A stretch of 53,918 nt of DNA from Oscillatoriales cyanobacterium (GTDB taxonomy: Bacteria > Cyanobacteriota > Cyanobacteriia > Cyanobacteriales > Laspinemataceae): positions 1 through 53,918 of the forward strand of contig JAABRM010000050.1 of assembly GCA_011390955.1 (NCBI GenBank). Direction: 5' to 3'. The stretch's first letter is position 1; every line of letters starts with the position of its first letter. Below the pieces are notes generated by a model that saw only the letters and a list, made by a program, of their open reading frames with translations, ran no database searches and had not been told where the DNA came from. The translations under genes and the position numbers were made by a program. Positions 8,475-53,918 of the stretch are shown here, piece by piece.

Positions 8475-8498
8475 AATAAACAACAGTGTTGCTACGTC

Positions 8499-8626
8499 CA
8501 TTCGGCGGGCATCCTGACTTAGAGACATCGCATCTCATCACAGTTGCGGGACAGCGCTGGATTTGCACCAGACTTTCCCCGTTACCTCTAGTGGCTGACT
8601 CCCACCAGAACCGATGTGGGTTAACT
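8499..8626 (-). ncRNA. cobalamin riboswitch aptamer
   Basis: The minus strand carries the conserved core in order: GGGGAAAG, GGTGCAAATCC, AGCGCTGTCCCGCAACTGT, then the AGTCAGGATGCCCGCC end corresponding to the B12-box 3' side. It lies about 135 nt upstream of cbiM and reads toward it. Cobalamin riboswitches repress cobalt uptake and B12 genes when adenosyl- or methylcobalamin is plentiful. Confidence 0.93.
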
Positions 8627-8639
8627 ATATCACTGTTAT

Positions 8640-39276: not shown

Positions 39277-39348
39277 AGCGGAGACGCATGTTTCCGTTCA
39301 CTCCTCACACCACACTCCGCCCGGACCTTGTTCGGGCGGTTTCTTTTT
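39277..39348 (+). ncRNA. yfr1: Yfr1 small regulatory RNA
   Basis: All Yfr1 hallmarks are present. A 5' hairpin AGCGGAGAC-GCAT-GTTTCCGTT (39277-39298) comes first. Next is the single-stranded core ACTCCTCACAC (39300-39310), identical to the conserved Yfr1 motif. Last is a terminator hairpin CCGCCCG...CGGGCGG with TTTCTTTTT (39317-39348). Location between guaB-type gene and trxA is the conserved one. Yfr1 pairs through its CU-rich core with 5' regions of target mRNAs (porins in marine strains). Annotation programs will miss it because it is non-coding. Confidence 0.93.
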
Positions 39349-48298: not shown

Positions 48299-48371
48299 AT
48301 TGGCCAAATAGACTAAGTAATATTGCTAAATTGCCCGAAAATTCGCCGCAAAAGTTAAGAATTGTTAATTA

Positions 48372-48440
48372 TTGTTGTTGGTTGTTGGTTATTTGTTATT
48401 TGTTATTGGTTGGTGGTTGGTGGTTGATGGTTGGTGGTTG
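48372..48440. repeat. TTGTTGG / TGGTTGG heptamer array
   Basis: Heptamers TTGTTGG, TATTTGT and GGTTGGT on the plus strand (the reverse of CCAACAA type). Lies beyond the psaD promoter and before the first three-hairpin element. Confidence 0.75.
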
Positions 48441-48479
48441 AAGAAAGTGAAAAGTTAAAAGTCAACAGTTAAAAGTTTC

Positions 48480-48603
48480 CTCGTTCCCAGGGTCTCCCTG
48501 GGAATGCCTTTCGCTCTTGCTCTGCCTCATGTGAGGAGTATATACGGACGCGAGGCAGAGCCTCGCTTAGTGGGGTTCCCAGGGAGACCCTGGGAACCAG
48601 AAA
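48480..48603. repeat. three-hairpin element, copy 1
   Basis: CTCGTTCCCAGGG-TCT-CCCTGGGAA hairpin, then a central hairpin with GCTCTGCCTC and GAGGCAGAGC arms around a conserved TGAGGAGTATA loop, then GTTCCCAGGG-AGA-CCCTGGGAAC hairpin. Outer hairpins are also complementary to each other. Copy 1 has CTCTTGCTCTGCCTC in the left central arm. Confidence 0.9.
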
Positions 48604-48639
48604 CCAGAAAGAATAAGCAGAATAAAATATATGATTTGG

Positions 48640-48722
48640 TTGGTGGTTGGTGGTTGGTGGTTGGTGGTTGGTGGTTGTCGCCCCCCCTTTGAAGGGGGGG
48701 GTTGGGGGGGTTCCTCGTTTCC
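48640..48722. repeat. GGTTGGT heptamers and poly-C/poly-G hairpin
   Basis: TTGGTGG/TGGTTGG heptamers (48640-48677), then a CCCCCCCTTTGAAGGGGGGG hairpin (about 48682-48702) of the type also at 7555, followed by GTTGGGGGGG. Confidence 0.8.
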
Positions 48723-48728
48723 TCGTTC

Positions 48729-48852
48729 CTCGTTCCCAGGGAGACCCTGGGAATGCCTTTCGCTCTTGCTCTGCCTCGTGTGAGGAGTATATACAGACAT
48801 GAGGCAGAGCCTCGCTTCGTGGGGTTCCCAGGGAGACCCTGGGAACCAGAAA
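48729..48852. repeat. three-hairpin element, copy 2
   Basis: As copy 1. The first hairpin loop reads AGA instead of TCT, showing inversion of that loop; central loop TGAGGAGTATATACAGACA. Confidence 0.9.
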
Positions 48853-48854
48853 AT

Positions 48855-48965
48855 TGACAATTATCAATTATCAATTATCAATTATCAATTACACCCCTAC
48901 CAAACTCCACCCAATCACTAACAACAAACAACCAAGAACAAACAACAAACAACTAACAACAAATA
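48855..48965. repeat. ATTATCA heptamers and CAACAAA-type leader
   Basis: ATTATCA heptamers (48857-48890), then A/C-rich AACAACAAACAACC sequence (about 48918-48965), immediately upstream of the 54-residue gene. Confidence 0.7.
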
Positions 48966-48987
48966 ACTCAATTATGCCAGACATTTT

Positions 48988-49152
48988 ATGAACCCAGAAC
49001 CTAAAAAACTATCGAGTAAAATTGATGTTGGAGTGAAAAAAGCGATCGCTGAAGCAATAGAAAGGCACCGTAAACTCGGTGAATCTATTAGTATTTGGCA
49101 AGATGGCAAAGTAGTGACTCTGACAAGCGATCGCATTCCTCCTCTTCCCTAG
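48988..49152 (+). CDS. 54-residue conserved-looking small protein
   Basis: Translates as MNPEPKKLSSKIDVGVKKAI, then AEAIERHRKLGESISIWQDG, then KVVTLTSDRIPPLP. The second half ('AIERHRKLGESISIW.DGKVVTL....IP') is a pattern I recognise from small cyanobacterial proteins that sit next to toxin-like or unknown partners, though I cannot give a domain name. It has a normal amino-acid mix and contains two HIP1-like sites (GCGATCGC at 49042, GCGATCGC at 49127). It lies between repeat blocks, 212 bp upstream of the DUF499 gene on the same strand, and could be co-transcribed. Confidence 0.7.
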   Translation: MNPEPKKLSSKIDVGVKKAIAEAIERHRKLGESISIWQDGKVVTLTSDRIPPLP

Positions 49153-49364
49153 GCAGAGAGCAGAGGAGCAGGGGGGCAGGGGGGCAGGGGTGCGGGGGGG
49201 CAGGGGAGCAGGGGGGCAGGGGGGCGGGGGAGAGAACAAACAACAAACAACAAACAACAAACAACAACCAACAAACAACCAACAACAACCAACAACAAAC
49301 AACAAACAACCACCAACAAACAACAAACAACCAACAACAAACAACAAACAACAAACAACAAATT
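49153..49364 (+). repeat. G-rich block plus CAACAAA heptamer leader of the DUF499 gene
   Basis: AGAGGAGC, then a run of (C)AGGGGGG units from about 49168 to 49232, with at least eight G-tracts of four or more. Next is an A/C-rich, G-free stretch of CAACAAA/CCAACAA units (49237-49360) running directly into AATT-ATG. No Shine-Dalgarno sequence is present before the ATG. Confidence 0.85.
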
Positions 49365-52300
49365 ATGCCTTTATCCTCAATTCTTGATACCTGTATTCCT
49401 CGAAAAGAAATTTTATCTGGTTCTTTGAAAGAGGAAATATTTGCCGCCAAAATTCGTCCGGTGGTGGAAGGAAAAGCCCCGCAAGTTTATCAGGATTCTC
49501 ATGTTTTTTTCGCGAATACTTTTCCCACTGATGGGATTAAAACCCTGATTCAAGAAGTTTTTAGCCGTCTGACTCAACAAGGGGCAGGTTCACCCGTGAT
49601 TCGCTTAGAAACCAGTTTTGGCGGCGGGAAAACTCACGACCAAATTGCCCTTTGGCATATTTGTAAACAAGGGAGAAAAATTCAAGGGTTAGACCGTTTT
49701 GTGGATTTAAATTTAATCCCAGAATCGGCGGTCAAAGTAGCAGCAATTGATGGCCGAGATTTAGACCCACAAAATGGGATTTATTATCAAAAAAATGGCC
49801 TGACTACTTATACTATTTGGGGAGAAATTGCTTACCAAATTGGCGGAGTTGCCGGTTATGAATTGCTCAAAGGTTCCGATACCAGCGGGATTAGTCCGGG
49901 AACTTCTATTTTAGAACGGTTGATTGATGGGCAACCTACTGTTATTATTATAGACGAAATTGCTCGCTATTTACGAGCAGCTAAAGCTAAATTGGTTGGA
50001 AATAGCGATTTGGCAGCACAAGTGGTAGCTTTTCTGTTTTCTTTGATGGATTTAGCGGCAGCTTGTGACTGTTTGGTTTTGGTTTATTCTTTGGCTTCAA
50101 AGTCTGATACTTTTGCGGCAGAAACCGCCTATTTGAATGATGAACTGAATGAGTTGATTCAGGCTTCTTCCCGTCAGGAACGGGTGATTAGTCCATCGAC
50201 GGATATCGAGATTTATAATATTGTTAAACAGCGCATTTTTGAACGGGTAAGTGATGAGGCAGCTAAGGCAGCAGCGGCAGAATATGTGGATCTTTATCGC
50301 TTGACTCGTGTTGATTTACCCGATGCTTGTAAGGATGCTTCTTATGCTGAGGCGATCGCACAATCTTATCCTTTTCACCCGGAACTGTTTAAGCTGTTAA
50401 CCCAAAAAATTGCCGCGATACCGGAGTTTCAACGGACGCGAGGGGCCTTGCGTTTATTTGCTTTGGTGGTGCAGCATCTTTGGCAAGAAAATCAGAAAAT
50501 TCCAGGGGCAGAAATGACCGGGTTGCTGTCAGTTTGGATACCGATGATTCATTCCCATCATATTCCCGTTGGGGTGAATAGTCAGGTGACTAATGAGTTG
50601 ACTTCTCGGTTACAACGTCCGTTTATGCGAAGTCCAATTCAGGCGGATATTTATAATTTAGATGCCAGAAAAGCTTATGCCCAAATTCAAGATGAAGTAT
50701 GGACTGTTGCCGGTAAACCTCCTTTTTCTACTTGGGTGGCAAGAACGATTTTTTTGCATTCTTTAACTCAAGGCATTTCTTCGGGGATTCGGGAAGCAGA
50801 ATTAAGTTTGTCTTTGCTGACTCCAGATGTTAAAATGGGGGTGGTAGATGATATTCTACAAAAGTTGGTTAAGGAAGCTTGGTATTTGGATTACGATCCA
50901 ATTACTTCCCTTGCCCGGTTTAAGGAAGAACCTTCTTTAAATAAGATTATTTCTGAGGAGAAAGAACAAGTTAAGCGAACTGATGCTAAGGAGGAATTAA
51001 GAAGGCGTCGGGATACTATTTTTGCGAAGCGATTTTTTGCCCTGATTTCGAGTCAGGTGGACAGTCCCTCGGACGTGGACGATCGCCCTGATGATATTGC
51101 TTTATGTGTGATGGATTTTGATGATGTCACCGTAGATAGTCCTACGGATCCTGTACCGGAGTTAGTCGATCGCATTTTTCATCAAACCGGGGATTCTGGT
51201 AAGTTTAGAATTTTCCGCAATCGCTTGTTATTTTTATTGGCAAATAAGCCAGCTTTACAACAGGCGATCGAGAATGCCAGAGAATATCAAGCGATTAGAA
51301 ATATTCTGCGTAGTCCTAATCGTTTAGATGATTTGTCAGACCGGCAGCAGCAACAATTGAAAGAACGAGAAGGGCAAAAAGATTTAGATGTGCGGGTATC
51401 TTTGACTAATGCTTATCGTCATTTATTTTATCCAGCAAATGACCTGGTAAAAGCCCCGAAAGGTTTGATGCACTATACTTTGACTGCCCAAGATGCTAGT
51501 ATGGTTAAAGGCAAAAACCATCAGCAGGATGTGATTCTTAAGGCGTTAAAAGATTGTGATAAAATTCGCCCAGACGATGCGAAACCTTTTGCCCCGGCTT
51601 ATATTTTGCAGAAAGTTTGGCCTGCGGGGATTGATTCTTGGACGACTAAAGAACTTTGCAATGCTTTTGCTAAGGATTTATCCCTGAATATGCTGTTAGA
51701 AAAAGAAGTTTTGATGTTACGGGAGACGATCCAAAAAGGTTTGACTGAGGGACATTGGGATTTGAAGGTTTCTGATAAGCCCGAAAGTGCTCCGCACCGC
51801 GGCGAAGGCCGCGAACGCTTCTATATTCAAACTCCGGATCGGCAGTTGGTTTTGCCAAATGCTTTGGAATTTAGCGATCGCTTTGTTCTCTATCGTCGGG
51901 GAATATTGGAACCCCCTAAACCGAGAACTTTAGAATTGACTTATCAGTTAATGTCTAGTTCTTCTGGGGAAAAACCCGTTTATGTCCGGTGGAAAGCTGA
52001 CGCGGCCCTAAAAGTCACCTTATTTAAAAATGAAATAGCGATTTCCACCGAGTTCAAACCCAAGGACGAGTATGAAACGGAAATTAGCAGTTGTACTCTA
52101 TTTAAAATAGTGGCAGACTATGGCAACGGGGAAACCGCGACAAGGGAAGTTACGGTTGACCCGGTAAATGCAGGGCCGGGAGTGGGTTCTCTGCGGGAAA
52201 GTTCTGCTATTTATCGTCCGACTAATTCTTCGACTAATTCTGGTACATATAATATAGATGCGAATCAGCCGAATATTTGGGATAGTCAGCCCCCTACGGT

Positions 52301-52727
52301 GGAAGTTGATGGTAGTCTTAATTCGGTTTTCAATCAGTTGGGCGATCGCTTTCAGGACGATCGGGTTAAGGCGATCGCAGCTATAGAAATGACCGTCAGC
52401 GACTTGATGGACTATCGGAAACTGGGAACAGCGATCGCGTTACTCCAGCGTTTTAGTCCAAAAATCGATCAAGACGTGACCATTCAAACTGGGGCAGAAT
52501 TTATTCGCTTGGAATATCAGGGGGATGCCCGTGGATTTCAGAGTCTTTTCTCAACTTTGAGTAATTGGTTAGTCAAGTCGGAACAAAGCGACGTATCCTT
52601 AAAAATCACCCTGGAATTCAAGCCATCCATATCACCTACAGGGCCAGAATTGGCACAAATTAAACAAACCCTTAACCGTAATCCCGTGGAACGGATTCAT
52701 TTAAGGGCACAGGTATTGTATTCGTAA
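49365..52727 (+). CDS. DUF499-type P-loop ATPase, defence-island type
   Basis: 1120 residues from ATG 49365 (MPLSSILDTCIPRKEIL). The frame open back to 49095 runs only through repeats and is rejected. Walker A GGGKT (86-90) in 'RLETSFGGGKTHDQIALWH', Walker B TVIIIDEIARYL (Asp197-Glu198). 'RGALRLFALVVQHLW' is a sensor-like helix. The C-terminal ~130 residues ('TVSDLMDYRKLGTAIALL..FSP', 'LRLEYQGDARGF' type) form a separate alpha/beta end. DUF499 ATPases occur with DUF1156-type DNA methylases and helicases in predicted phage-defence islands, and large ATPases of similar length (BrxC/PglY) are core BREX parts. No methylase is in the window; it would have to lie to the right. A short Arg/Glu segment near residue 811-819 is encoded by a CGCGGC-GAAG-GCCGCG palindrome. 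Confidence 0.85.
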   Translation: MPLSSILDTCIPRKEILSGSLKEEIFAAKIRPVVEGKAPQVYQDSHVFFANTFPTDGIKTLIQEVFSRLTQQGAGSPVIRLETSFGGGKTHDQIALWHICKQGRKIQGLDRFVDLNLIPESAVKVAAIDGRDLDPQNGIYYQKNGLTTYTIWGEIAYQIGGVAGYELLKGSDTSGISPGTSILERLIDGQPTVIIIDEIARYLRAAKAKLVGNSDLAAQVVAFLFSLMDLAAACDCLVLVYSLASKSDTFAAETAYLNDELNELIQASSRQERVISPSTDIEIYNIVKQRIFERVSDEAAKAAAAEYVDLYRLTRVDLPDACKDASYAEAIAQSYPFHPELFKLLTQKIAAIPEFQRTRGALRLFALVVQHLWQENQKIPGAEMTGLLSVWIPMIHSHHIPVGVNSQVTNELTSRLQRPFMRSPIQADIYNLDARKAYAQIQDEVWTVAGKPPFSTWVARTIFLHSLTQGISSGIREAELSLSLLTPDVKMGVVDDILQKLVKEAWYLDYDPITSLARFKEEPSLNKIISEEKEQVKRTDAKEELRRRRDTIFAKRFFALISSQVDSPSDVDDRPDDIALCVMDFDDVTVDSPTDPVPELVDRIFHQTGDSGKFRIFRNRLLFLLANKPALQQAIENAREYQAIRNILRSPNRLDDLSDRQQQQLKEREGQKDLDVRVSLTNAYRHLFYPANDLVKAPKGLMHYTLTAQDASMVKGKNHQQDVILKALKDCDKIRPDDAKPFAPAYILQKVWPAGIDSWTTKELCNAFAKDLSLNMLLEKEVLMLRETIQKGLTEGHWDLKVSDKPESAPHRGEGRERFYIQTPDRQLVLPNALEFSDRFVLYRRGILEPPKPRTLELTYQLMSSSSGEKPVYVRWKADAALKVTLFKNEIAISTEFKPKDEYETEISSCTLFKIVADYGNGETATREVTVDPVNAGPGVGSLRESSAIYRPTNSSTNSGTYNIDANQPNIWDSQPPTVEVDGSLNSVFNQLGDRFQDDRVKAIAAIEMTVSDLMDYRKLGTAIALLQRFSPKIDQDVTIQTGAEFIRLEYQGDARGFQSLFSTLSNWLVKSEQSDVSLKITLEFKPSISPTGPELAQIKQTLNRNPVERIHLRAQVLYS
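51798..51813. repeat. GC palindrome inside the DUF499 gene
   Basis: CGCGGC-GAAG-GCCGCG. It encodes HRGEGRE within the segment 'ESAPHRGEGRERF' and is GC-rich against an AT-rich gene, like an inserted repeat. Confidence 0.6.
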
Positions 52728-52766
52728 TATTTGTAGGGTGGGCATTGCCCACCATACATATTATTT

Positions 52767-52889
52767 CTCGTTCCCAGGGTCTCCCTGGGAATGCCCTTCT
52801 AGAGGCTCTGCCTCGCGTGAGGAGTATATGCGGACACGAGGCAGAGCCTCGCTTAGTGGGGTTCCCAGGGTCTCCCTGGGAACCAGAAA
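52767..52889. repeat. three-hairpin element, copy 3
   Basis: Both outer loops read TCT here (the last hairpin is GTTCCCAGGG-TCT-CCCTGGGAAC). Central arms GAGGCTCTGCCTCG and CGAGGCAGAGCCTCG, loop CGTGAGGAGTATATGCGGACA. 40 bp after the DUF499 stop. Confidence 0.9.
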
Positions 52890-52979
52890 AGAACCAACAA
52901 CAACCAACAAACAACAACCAACAACCAACAACAAACAACAACCAACAAATAACCATGAACAAAGAATTTCTCGTTCCCA
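52890..52979. repeat. CCAACAA/CAACAAA array and 'ATAACCATGAACAAAGAATTT' joint
   Basis: A/C-rich heptamers (52890-52950) followed by TAACCATGAACAAAGAATTT. The same array plus joint recurs at 53765-53839 between copies 5 and 6. Confidence 0.85.
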
Positions 52980-53102
52980 GGGTCTCCCTGGGAATGCCCG
53001 AATAGAGGCTCTGCCTCGTGTGAGGAGTATATACAGATATATACAGACACGAGGCAGAGCCTCGCTTAGTGGGGTTCCCAGGGAGACCCTGGGAACCAGA
53101 GA
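52980..53102. repeat. three-hairpin element, copy 4
   Basis: Central loop carries an 11-bp tandem duplication (TATATACAGA repeated): GAGTATATACAGATATATACAGACA. Otherwise standard. Ends 20 bp before the start codon of the 141-residue gene. Confidence 0.9.
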
Positions 53103-53121
53103 ATATTATTGATGATAAAAT

Positions 53122-53547
53122 ATGCAAGAATTCCAATTAAGAGTTATTCCCCTAAAAGATAACAATTTTTCCCTGGAACTTTATCAATGTGCTTACAAAC
53201 AAGCCGGACAGAAAAAACGACCAGCAGCCAAGCGGATTGGCCAATTAAAAGGAGAAAAGTTATTGTTAGCCCGCCAAAGCATTTATGCGGCTTTAAAAGC
53301 CAATAGTTACGATCCGAAAACTTTGTCGAAACGACGGCAAGCCCCCTATAGTTTATCAGAGGATTCCGGGGTGAGATTAGCGATTTTATGCCAAGCCTTG
53401 CAGCCATTGTCAAAAAGTGAGAGAATTCAGGAAATTACTACGGGAATTATGGCTATGAGTGATGAGGAAGCCCATTATTGGTTTGGCAAGATTAATCATG
53501 GTAAACGCAGTTCGGCATTAAAGGCGATTCGGGTATTATTAAGTTAG
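53122..53547 (+). CDS. 141-residue partner-like protein downstream of DUF499
   Basis: N-terminal 'FQLRVIPLKDNNFSLELYQC' and 'KRPAAKRIGQLKGEKLLLARQSIYAALKANSYDPKTLSKRR', C-terminal 'YSLSEDSGVRLAILCQALQPLSKSERIQEITTGIMAMSDEEAHYWFGKI' and 'RSSALKAIRVLLS'. Basic, soluble, mostly helical after a short beta start. I believe proteins of this kind accompany DUF499 ATPases (possibly the DUF7680 family), but I cannot confirm the name. Same strand as DUF499, 395 bp away, the gap being two three-hairpin elements. Normal codon use; likely a real partner. Confidence 0.78.
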   Translation: MQEFQLRVIPLKDNNFSLELYQCAYKQAGQKKRPAAKRIGQLKGEKLLLARQSIYAALKANSYDPKTLSKRRQAPYSLSEDSGVRLAILCQALQPLSKSERIQEITTGIMAMSDEEAHYWFGKINHGKRSSALKAIRVLLS

Positions 53548-53555
53548 GGGAGGGT

Positions 53556-53640
53556 GTAATTGATAATTGACAATTGATAATTGATAATTGATAATTGATA
53601 ATTGATAATTGATAATTGATAATTGATAATTAAAGAAAAT
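53556..53640. repeat. TTGATAA heptamer array
   Basis: About ten TTGATAA (ATAATTG) heptamers, with one TTGACAA variant, directly after the 141-residue gene. Confidence 0.85.
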
Positions 53641-53642
53641 TT

Positions 53643-53764
53643 CTCGTTCCCAGGGTCTCCCTGGGAATGCCCGAATAGAGGCTCTGCCTCGCGTGAGGAG
53701 TATATGCGGACACGAGGCAGAGCCTCGTTTAGTGGGGTTCCCAGGGAGACCCTGGGAACCAGAA
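53643..53764. repeat. three-hairpin element, copy 5
   Basis: Standard form, loop CGTGAGGAGTATATGCGGACA; right central arm ends CCTCGTTTAG instead of CCTCGCTTAG. Confidence 0.9.
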
Positions 53765-53839
53765 CAACCAACAAACAACCAACAACAAACAACAAACAAC
53801 AACCAACAAATAACCATGAACAAAGAATTTCTCGTTTTT
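53765..53839. repeat. CCAACAA array and joint, second occurrence
   Basis: Heptamers then ATAACCATGAACAAAGAATT and CTCGTTTTT, matching 52890-52979. Confidence 0.85.
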
Positions 53840-53918
53840 CTCGTTCCCAGGGTCTCCCTGGGAATGCCCGAATAGAGGCTCTGCCTCGCGTGGGGAGTAT
53901 ATGCGGACACGAGGCAGA
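53840..53918. repeat. three-hairpin element, copy 6, cut by window edge
   Basis: Left hairpin and central hairpin up to CGAGGCAGA are visible; the rest lies outside. Loop has GTGGGGAGTATATGC, one base unlike the others. Confidence 0.88.

Follow-up and report, generated by a model that had tools for sequence, protein, structure and literature searches.

Which kind of element forms the cluster of palindromes at one end of a cyanobacterial contig, and which enzyme could have mobilized it? The question is raised by a stretch of 53,918 nt from an Oscillatoriales cyanobacterium (in the following the window), which represents the complete contig C51, positions 1-53918, of its own genome assembly (G000; 7.12 Mb, 113 contigs, 95.1% complete). 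The PsaD gene and the small RNA Yfr1 in the window mark the contig as cyanobacterial. As a first-pass annotation of this DNA had stated, the final 5.5 kb harbor six copies of an element, which measures ~120 bp. Five of them are whole and one is truncated by the contig end at 53918. With a probability of about 0.82, this element is a non-autonomous miniature transposon resembling a REPIN (a hairpin-forming doublet of repetitive extragenic palindromes, REPs), which belongs to a distinct clade of REP-associated tyrosine transposases (RAYTs). The position of the RAYT between element halves in a related genome, the abundance of the ends in RAYT-bearing genomes and a recurrent CTCG foot together argue for this affiliation.

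The RAYT clade and its CTCG-footed hairpins

Each end of the element consists of the foot CTCG, hairpin A (9 bp, 3-nt loop), the trinucleotide TGC, a short spacer and a short hairpin B of the GAGGC-TCT-GCCTC type, with the left and right ends being inverted complements. In a genome of the same family (G004), a RAYT gene (177 aa) has three left half-elements on one side and several right ones on the other, and occupies the place of the small element's variable central loop. Two genomes of the same genus carry a 92% identical RAYT, and in these the element hairpin is confined to the downstream side of the gene. Within the order, relatives of the G004 RAYT were detected in 38 of 291 genomes (E 1e-30). 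Thirty loci from this search and two Scytonema records in which the gene was found make up a set of 32 clade loci, featuring CTCG hairpins on both sides of the RAYT (11 loci), on one side (18) or on none (3); a CTCG hairpin is located within 500 bp of the gene in 25 of the 32. Regarding the end units, abundance is a fairer measure than mere presence: at least 18 were counted in 37 of the 38 RAYT-positive genomes versus 55 of the 253 RAYT-negative ones (no match at E 1e-30), as tallied by hand from the end-unit search with about 19 candidates scored per genome. Thus, 37 of the 92 genomes with this many units possess the RAYT, and the other 199 include one RAYT-positive genome. Fisher tests of RAYT against end units yielded 7.7e-14 and 2.2e-20, with kinship ignored.

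To examine the foot, all 256 tetranucleotides were considered in turn as the sequence immediately 5' of a hairpin with 7 bp or more, and their occurrence was compared between the 32 clade loci and 50 other Y1-transposase loci (originally 52, with L124 and L133 removed as holders of the clade RAYT; two overlapping pairs, L102/L113 and L117/L127, remain). CTCG ranked first, occurring at 29 of 32 clade loci versus 2 of 50 others, whereas GTAG, the leading foot of the latter (18 of 50), was present at 5 of 32 and GTGG at none of the 32. From one genome to another the stem differs, but the CTCG foot is retained. In 64 of 72 units, hairpin A is succeeded by hairpin B, compared with 1059 of 20000 random 32-mers (5.3%). 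A further CTCG(TT) lies at most 16 nt upstream in 13 of 52 left ends (random 1.4%), and a further AACSAG near 3 of 20 right ends (random 2.5%), the right-end feet observed being CGAG and CCAG. Such additional foot copies would fit repeated insertion or excision at the foot; slippage may also account for them.

The protein itself is a RAYT by its family assignment, since the three clade members scanned match the NCBIfam model NF047646 (REP-associated tyrosine transposase) with 105-108.5 bits at a cut-off of 80. The alignment comprises the proteins of 26 of the 32 clade loci, without L144, L156 and L167 (stops), L207 (frame break) and the near copies L140 and L166. Both HUH histidines and the tyrosine, as well as the NHLH and WQ motifs, are present in all 26 proteins; YIHNNP occurs in 17, with YIHYNP, YIHANP, YIHTNP, YIHINP or YMHNNP in the remainder. 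The clade profile matches the Escherichia coli TnpA_REP structure 4ER8 (E 1.6e-6), and according to the alignment with it W94 and Q95 are kept in 26/26 proteins. E100 is replaced by P in 24/26, H101 by Q in 24/26 and R104 by L, Q, F, A or S in 26/26. These three residues have been named for GTAG recognition and are not conserved in TnpA_REP subclass 2.6 (PMC6006769; statements on published systems follow excerpts of the papers cited, here and below). By motifs rather than tree position, the clade resembles subclass 2.6 more than subclass 2.4; the latter was rejected by its histidine motif NH[IFV]H versus NHLH in the clade. A single-sequence AlphaFold model of the Scytonema RAYT reached a mean pLDDT of 44.7 and was not used. 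The trans-acting RAYT partner proposed in the first-pass annotation is therefore supported by the arrangement in G004, the abundance of the ends, the CTCG foot and the NF047646 match.

The hairpins are not restricted to Cyanobacteria. A pattern scan of named genomes (at least 114 stretches) revealed hairpin A, among the 80 stretches listed by name, in many cyanobacteria and also in records of Desulfoluna, Desulfonema, Desulfococcaceae, Desulfomonilaceae, other Deltaproteobacteria, Planctomycetota and Nitrospinota. A RAYT relative (E 1e-15) was found in five of nine non-cyanobacterial and four of five cyanobacterial genomes, all chosen because they hold the hairpin pattern. At 32-53% identity, the RAYT relatives outside Cyanobacteria have CTCG hairpins at 5/6 loci, and the best RAYT locus in each of five non-cyanobacterial genomes features 2 to 11 of them. 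Two of these five loci show a wholly different stem of the GGATT type, and their hairpin B has the same sequence as the tip of hairpin A.

Copies, folding and conservation of the element

The window contains eleven perfect TTCCCAGG-N5-CCTGGGAA hairpins, located without exception within 48484-53864, and none was obtained in 100 dinucleotide shuffles. Five window copies match the sequence TGAGGAGTATAT exactly, and the sixth deviates from it by a single mismatch. As single-stranded DNA, the five whole copies fold far better than shuffles (z -6.6 to -13.6), and the left hairpin can pair with the right one as well, in accordance with the earlier description of mutually pairing outer hairpins. The flip of the small loops between TCT and AGA, claimed in the same description, holds in part. 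The left loop is TCT in 5/6 and the right loop AGA in 4/5 copies, as for the most part results from the right arm repeating the left one in inverted-complementary form; only copy 2 (left arm) and copy 3 (right arm) truly depart from this pattern. Moreover, copies 3 and 4 correspond to copies 5 and 6 as one duplicated pair (279 alignment columns), so that the six window copies do not represent six independent insertions and the suspected local amplification is supported. All coordinates are compiled in Table 1.

Table 1. Element copies and further features in the last part of the window
Feature	Position	Strand	Remark
Element copy 1	48480..48600	+	CTCG, hairpin A, central stem, hairpin A', CCAG
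Element copy 2	48729..48849	+	Left hairpin loop AGA, not TCT
Element copy 3	52767..52886	+	Right hairpin loop TCT, not AGA
Element copy 4	52970..53099	+	Loop 10 nt longer, ATATACAG repeated
Element copy 5	53643..53762	+	
Element copy 6	53840..53918	+	Cut by contig end; assembly break inside repeat
Duplicated unit (copy 3 with spacer and a portion of copy 4)	52763..53032	+	88% identical to 53639-53902
DUF499 / HmaC-like AAA+ ATPase gene	49368..52727	+	Context, outside element; PADLOC 343.8 bits
DUF7680 gene	53122..53547	+	Context, follows HmaC-like DUF499 gene
Different palindrome, one copy, GTAGGGTGGGCATTGCCCACC	52734..52756	+	Type flanking another G000 RAYT (L057)
Synteny break versus same-genus genomes G001 and G002	48408..49356	.	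Contains copies 1 and 2

When 36 copies from G000, 35 of them distinct, are aligned, both outer hairpins and the central stem prove to be kept; the central loop varies in sequence and length, being conserved only among near copies. Selection on this loop, as supposed before, was thus not confirmed, and the loop was dismissed as a functional motif. The innermost pair of the outer hairpins alternates between C-G and G-C, resulting in both-side changes in 27 cells versus 10.8 in shuffles, with the number of pairs concerned (two) not exceeding that of shuffles. The central stem is 97% paired with 0 both-side changes. Its arms are small hairpins themselves (GAGGC-TCT-GCCTC), and accordingly each end can be read as a succession of hairpins A and B; the copies of G000 fit one long central stem as well as two small hairpins and do not decide between them. 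Across genomes, 38 of 72 end units from the clade loci (at most two per locus) were selected for exact stem, CTCG and hairpin B, so that their paired percentage and foot invariance are given by construction. In these units, both-side changes were found in 62 cells versus 15.5 in shuffles and at 7/14 pairs, compared with a shuffled mean of 5.0 and 21/500 shuffles reaching 7. Some compensatory change in the stems is therefore in line with the proposed stem constraint.

A profile search of the window and 30 further own-genome stretches yielded 56 non-overlapping copies on 26 contigs, 38 of them with at least 110 nt. This number is a lower bound, as the stretches were picked around earlier matches and further end units exist on C23, C44, C45, C47 and C53. 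The element, initially noted as clustered around the DUF499 module and missing from the rest of the window, is therefore a genome-wide family and not specific to this module. It is unevenly distributed, with 35 of the 56 copies having a neighbor within 1.5 kb (random placement about 2-4%); the even distribution without stem covariation that would have spoken against the earlier reading was thus not observed. The contigs C8, C35, C51 and C107 start or end within a copy, and the copies on C8, C35, C101 and C107 have common left flanks. On C43 (41200-43800; L064), three copies of 120, 81 and 120 nt (L064:575-694, 1778-1858 and 1881-2000), all multiples of three, sit in the same open frame of 866 codons, which encodes an Eco57I/MmeI-type methylase, and contribute protein segments in the methylase reading frame. 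These in-frame copies in a restriction-type methylase gene suggest that the element may also add protein segments.

The spacers between genes and elements are occupied by heptanucleotide-type tandem repeats (TTGGTGG, AACAACA/AACAACC, AATTGAT; window 48361-48677, 48900-48967, 49230-49365 and 53557-53640), which vary among close relatives at the compared sites. In the same-genus genome G002 (L291, C1:6361500-6372500), the gap between DUF499 and DUF7680 is filled with other palindromes in tandem, of the CCGCCGGGGAATAAATTCCCCG and GTCATTCCCGCGAAGGCGGGAATCC types. The window contig ends before the next gene downstream of DUF7680; in G002, this gene is presumably a DNA methylase.

Mobility, objections and rival explanations

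The element is missing at the orthologous sites compared in the same-genus genomes G001 and G002. It is absent in both at the sites of copies 3-5 and at a single-copy site on C62, and absent in G002 at a site on C91, where G001 is known by match coordinates only. The DNA adjoining the compared sites is 93-97% identical to these relatives. Besides, two stretches of the C91 locus (L305:583-865 and 2033-2157) are contiguous in G001 and G002 and look like clean empty sites for other repeat families, whose ~283-bp and ~125-bp members have many similar copies in both genomes.

Several results weigh against the RAYT-linked miniature transposon. First, no clean empty site of the element, i.e., no clean gain, was found at the three regions compared in G001 and G002; at C62 the relatives keep CCTGGGAAC, which fits a loss in them, and at the other compared sites neighboring repeats were turned over too. 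Second, the host genome lacks a clade RAYT in its assembly (0 matches at E 1e-30, seven candidates scored), the loci examined contain only relatives with 26-27% identity, and the assembly, being 95.1% complete, breaks at element copies. Third, the flanking is incomplete, as the exact-stem test revealed both-side hairpins at only 11 of the 32 clade loci, L157-L159 feature a single hairpin more than 1 kb from the gene, and the weaker RAYT relative L330 (second Desulfoluna locus, 36%) has no CTCG hairpin. The clade loci are also kin (L139/L140 and L165/L166 are nearly alike), so that their counts overstate independence. Fourth, the clade RAYT loci served as the source of the end-unit model R1, which has matches in 142 of 291 genomes, meaning that its match in all 38 RAYT-positive genomes is partly given by construction; at least one end unit is also held by 104 of the 253 RAYT-negative genomes. 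Finally, the GTAG-flanked RAYT L057 likewise lacks H101 and R104 and keeps E100, which weakens the residue argument for a changed guide reading.

Of the three Y1-transposase matches in G000, two score as RAYTs, each with its own different palindromes. Both were rejected as partners: L055 is flanked by AGAAACCCGGTTTCT and L057 by GTAGGGTGGGCAT palindromes, and neither stretch contains the TTCCCAG palindrome. Other cyanobacterial RAYTs (L055, L057, L103, L109, L110, L111) carry palindrome families of their own (AGAAACCCGGTTTCT; GTAGGGTGGGCATTGCCCACCCTAC), and thus one genome hosts several RAYT/palindrome pairs. The flanks of the same-genus RAYT site lie on C22 and C14 of G000, without the RAYT. 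The transposase was either lost from G000 or is located in an assembly gap. Because it is not in the assembly, the present copies may be passive.

This leads to the alternative that survives best, namely that the family is now spread in G000 only by local duplication and recombination. The duplicated pair in the window, the common left flanks of the copies on four contigs and the RAYT-free assembly all speak for it. Nevertheless, passive spread accounts for the clusters and neither for the distribution over at least 26 contigs nor for the RAYT association, which renders it rather unlikely as the whole explanation. It may well be true of G000 today and would be compatible with a RAYT origin.

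An unrelated miniature inverted-repeat transposable element (MITE) of a DDE-type insertion sequence, whose palindromic terminal inverted repeats merely adjoin the RAYT, appears improbable. Inverted ends with an internal loop do look MITE-like, and many genomes hold ends without a RAYT; the recurrence of the foot, both at 29 of 32 RAYT loci and beside related RAYTs of other phyla, together with the richness of RAYT-positive genomes in ends, is difficult to reconcile with it. The search for target-site duplications was a visual inspection of the element flanks, and the transposase search covered the Y1 type.

Similarly low is the probability of an island-boundary marker tied to defense genes, as supposed in the first-pass annotation. 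The window cluster surrounds the HmaC-like DUF499 gene and touches a synteny break, and two of the four proteins scanned beside other clusters are DNA methylases. Still, the other two are a guanylate kinase and a COP23 protein, these counts come without a random control, and the copies are scattered over at least 26 contigs, leaving the break at copies 1 and 2 as one case; the assumed link to the DUF499 module or an island edge is thus not supported.

Least probable of all is a structural RNA or DNA element (terminator, mRNA stabilizer or regulatory hairpin) selected for host function: its stems are kept with compensatory changes and intergenic copies could be transcribed, but copies are absent at compared sites in close relatives, three are embedded in a coding frame, genomes differ in the stem and agree in the foot, and no Rfam family reaches its gathering score at the element, so that a known RNA family was rejected. 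The only Rfam matches in the window lie elsewhere, i.e., Yfr1 (39278-39341, +) and a cobalamin riboswitch (8486-8630, -).

Relation to known systems and implications

For the REPIN-like transposon, a mechanism can be proposed in analogy to known TnpA_REP work, from which binding, cutting and movement are transferred (PMC8266576). The RAYT, an HUH enzyme with a single tyrosine, would bind the folded hairpins on single-stranded DNA, with CTCG taking the guide position in which GTAG serves in known REPs. It would cut near the foot and then move or copy the unit. The small element may have arisen by loss of the RAYT between its ends, and local clusters would have grown further by duplication of pairs.

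Among the described systems, REPINs and their RAYTs are similar in that two inverted hairpins combine into a single long one, a neighboring RAYT carries the same ends, and tandem clusters including flanks occur with presumed mobilization in trans (PMC3116915). They differ by the GTAG instead of the CTCG foot, and here two hairpins (A and B) form each end. Two inverted REP-like hairpins with a short spacer are present in the element, and a RAYT flanked by the same hairpins exists in relatives and was not found in G000. GTAG/GTGG is regarded as the hallmark of RAYT-linked REPs, and an automatic search relied on it (PMC6006769). The element itself probably works like a REPIN and lacks this hallmark. 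Subclass 2.6, equivalent to RAYT group 5, is similar in NH[LIV]H, WQ, a comparable length (~179 aa), an SS close to the C-terminus, guide-region residues that are not conserved and REPs lacking GT[AG]G; in contrast, it is mostly described from Bacteroidetes with 'atypical', weaker structures, whereas strong, regular twin hairpins in Cyanobacteria and others are found here, and its YIH[QN]NP motif occurs in only 17/26 clade proteins (PMC6006769). TIRtrons with their TIRYTs likewise comprise a RAYT flanked by long, partly self-complementary inverted repeats and dispersed copies; a GGGGWSAS motif is reported for some of them, and a CTCG foot is not named in the excerpt (PMC3733652). The ends of IS200/IS605 elements also feature subterminal hairpins, whose foot is preceded on its 5' side by a guide of four nucleotides (PMC6006769, PMC8266576), in contrast to the two hairpins per end described here. 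A MITE of this group was rejected, as the IS200 model NF033573 scored the G004 protein with 19.8 bits versus a cut-off of 55 and did not match the two other clade members, with NF047646 above its cut-off in all three. CGTC-tagged REPs, described without a dedicated transposase (PMC3733652), were rejected too, since CGTC was found at 2/32 loci and a RAYT is present. Among the papers listed on cyanobacterial REPs, RAYTs and dispersed repeats, no title or abstract opening named the CTCG foot, and the matches listed for the element's motif strings contained nothing on repeats; the foot may still appear in a table or paper beyond this scope.

The clade might constitute a further RAYT tag class, i.e., CTCG-tagged twin-hairpin REPINs with a RAYT clade of their own, whose guide-reading residues changed together with the tag and which are distributed across Cyanobacteria and reach Desulfobacterota-type bacteria and Nitrospinota; the chances of this broader proposal are considered even. 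If it is true, the published guide rule, in which the foot positions 3+4 or 2+4 select the cut, predicts for CTCG a cut between C and G or C and A, not between C and T, and these predicted dinucleotides, CG and CA, are contained in the right-end feet CGAG and CCAG. A common palindrome family, with end units in 142 of the 291 genomes of one order, would also be linked to an enzyme. Moreover, a RAYT clade combining a different recurrent foot with changed guide-site residues would, if confirmed, offer a natural experiment on the choice of cut sites by HUH enzymes.

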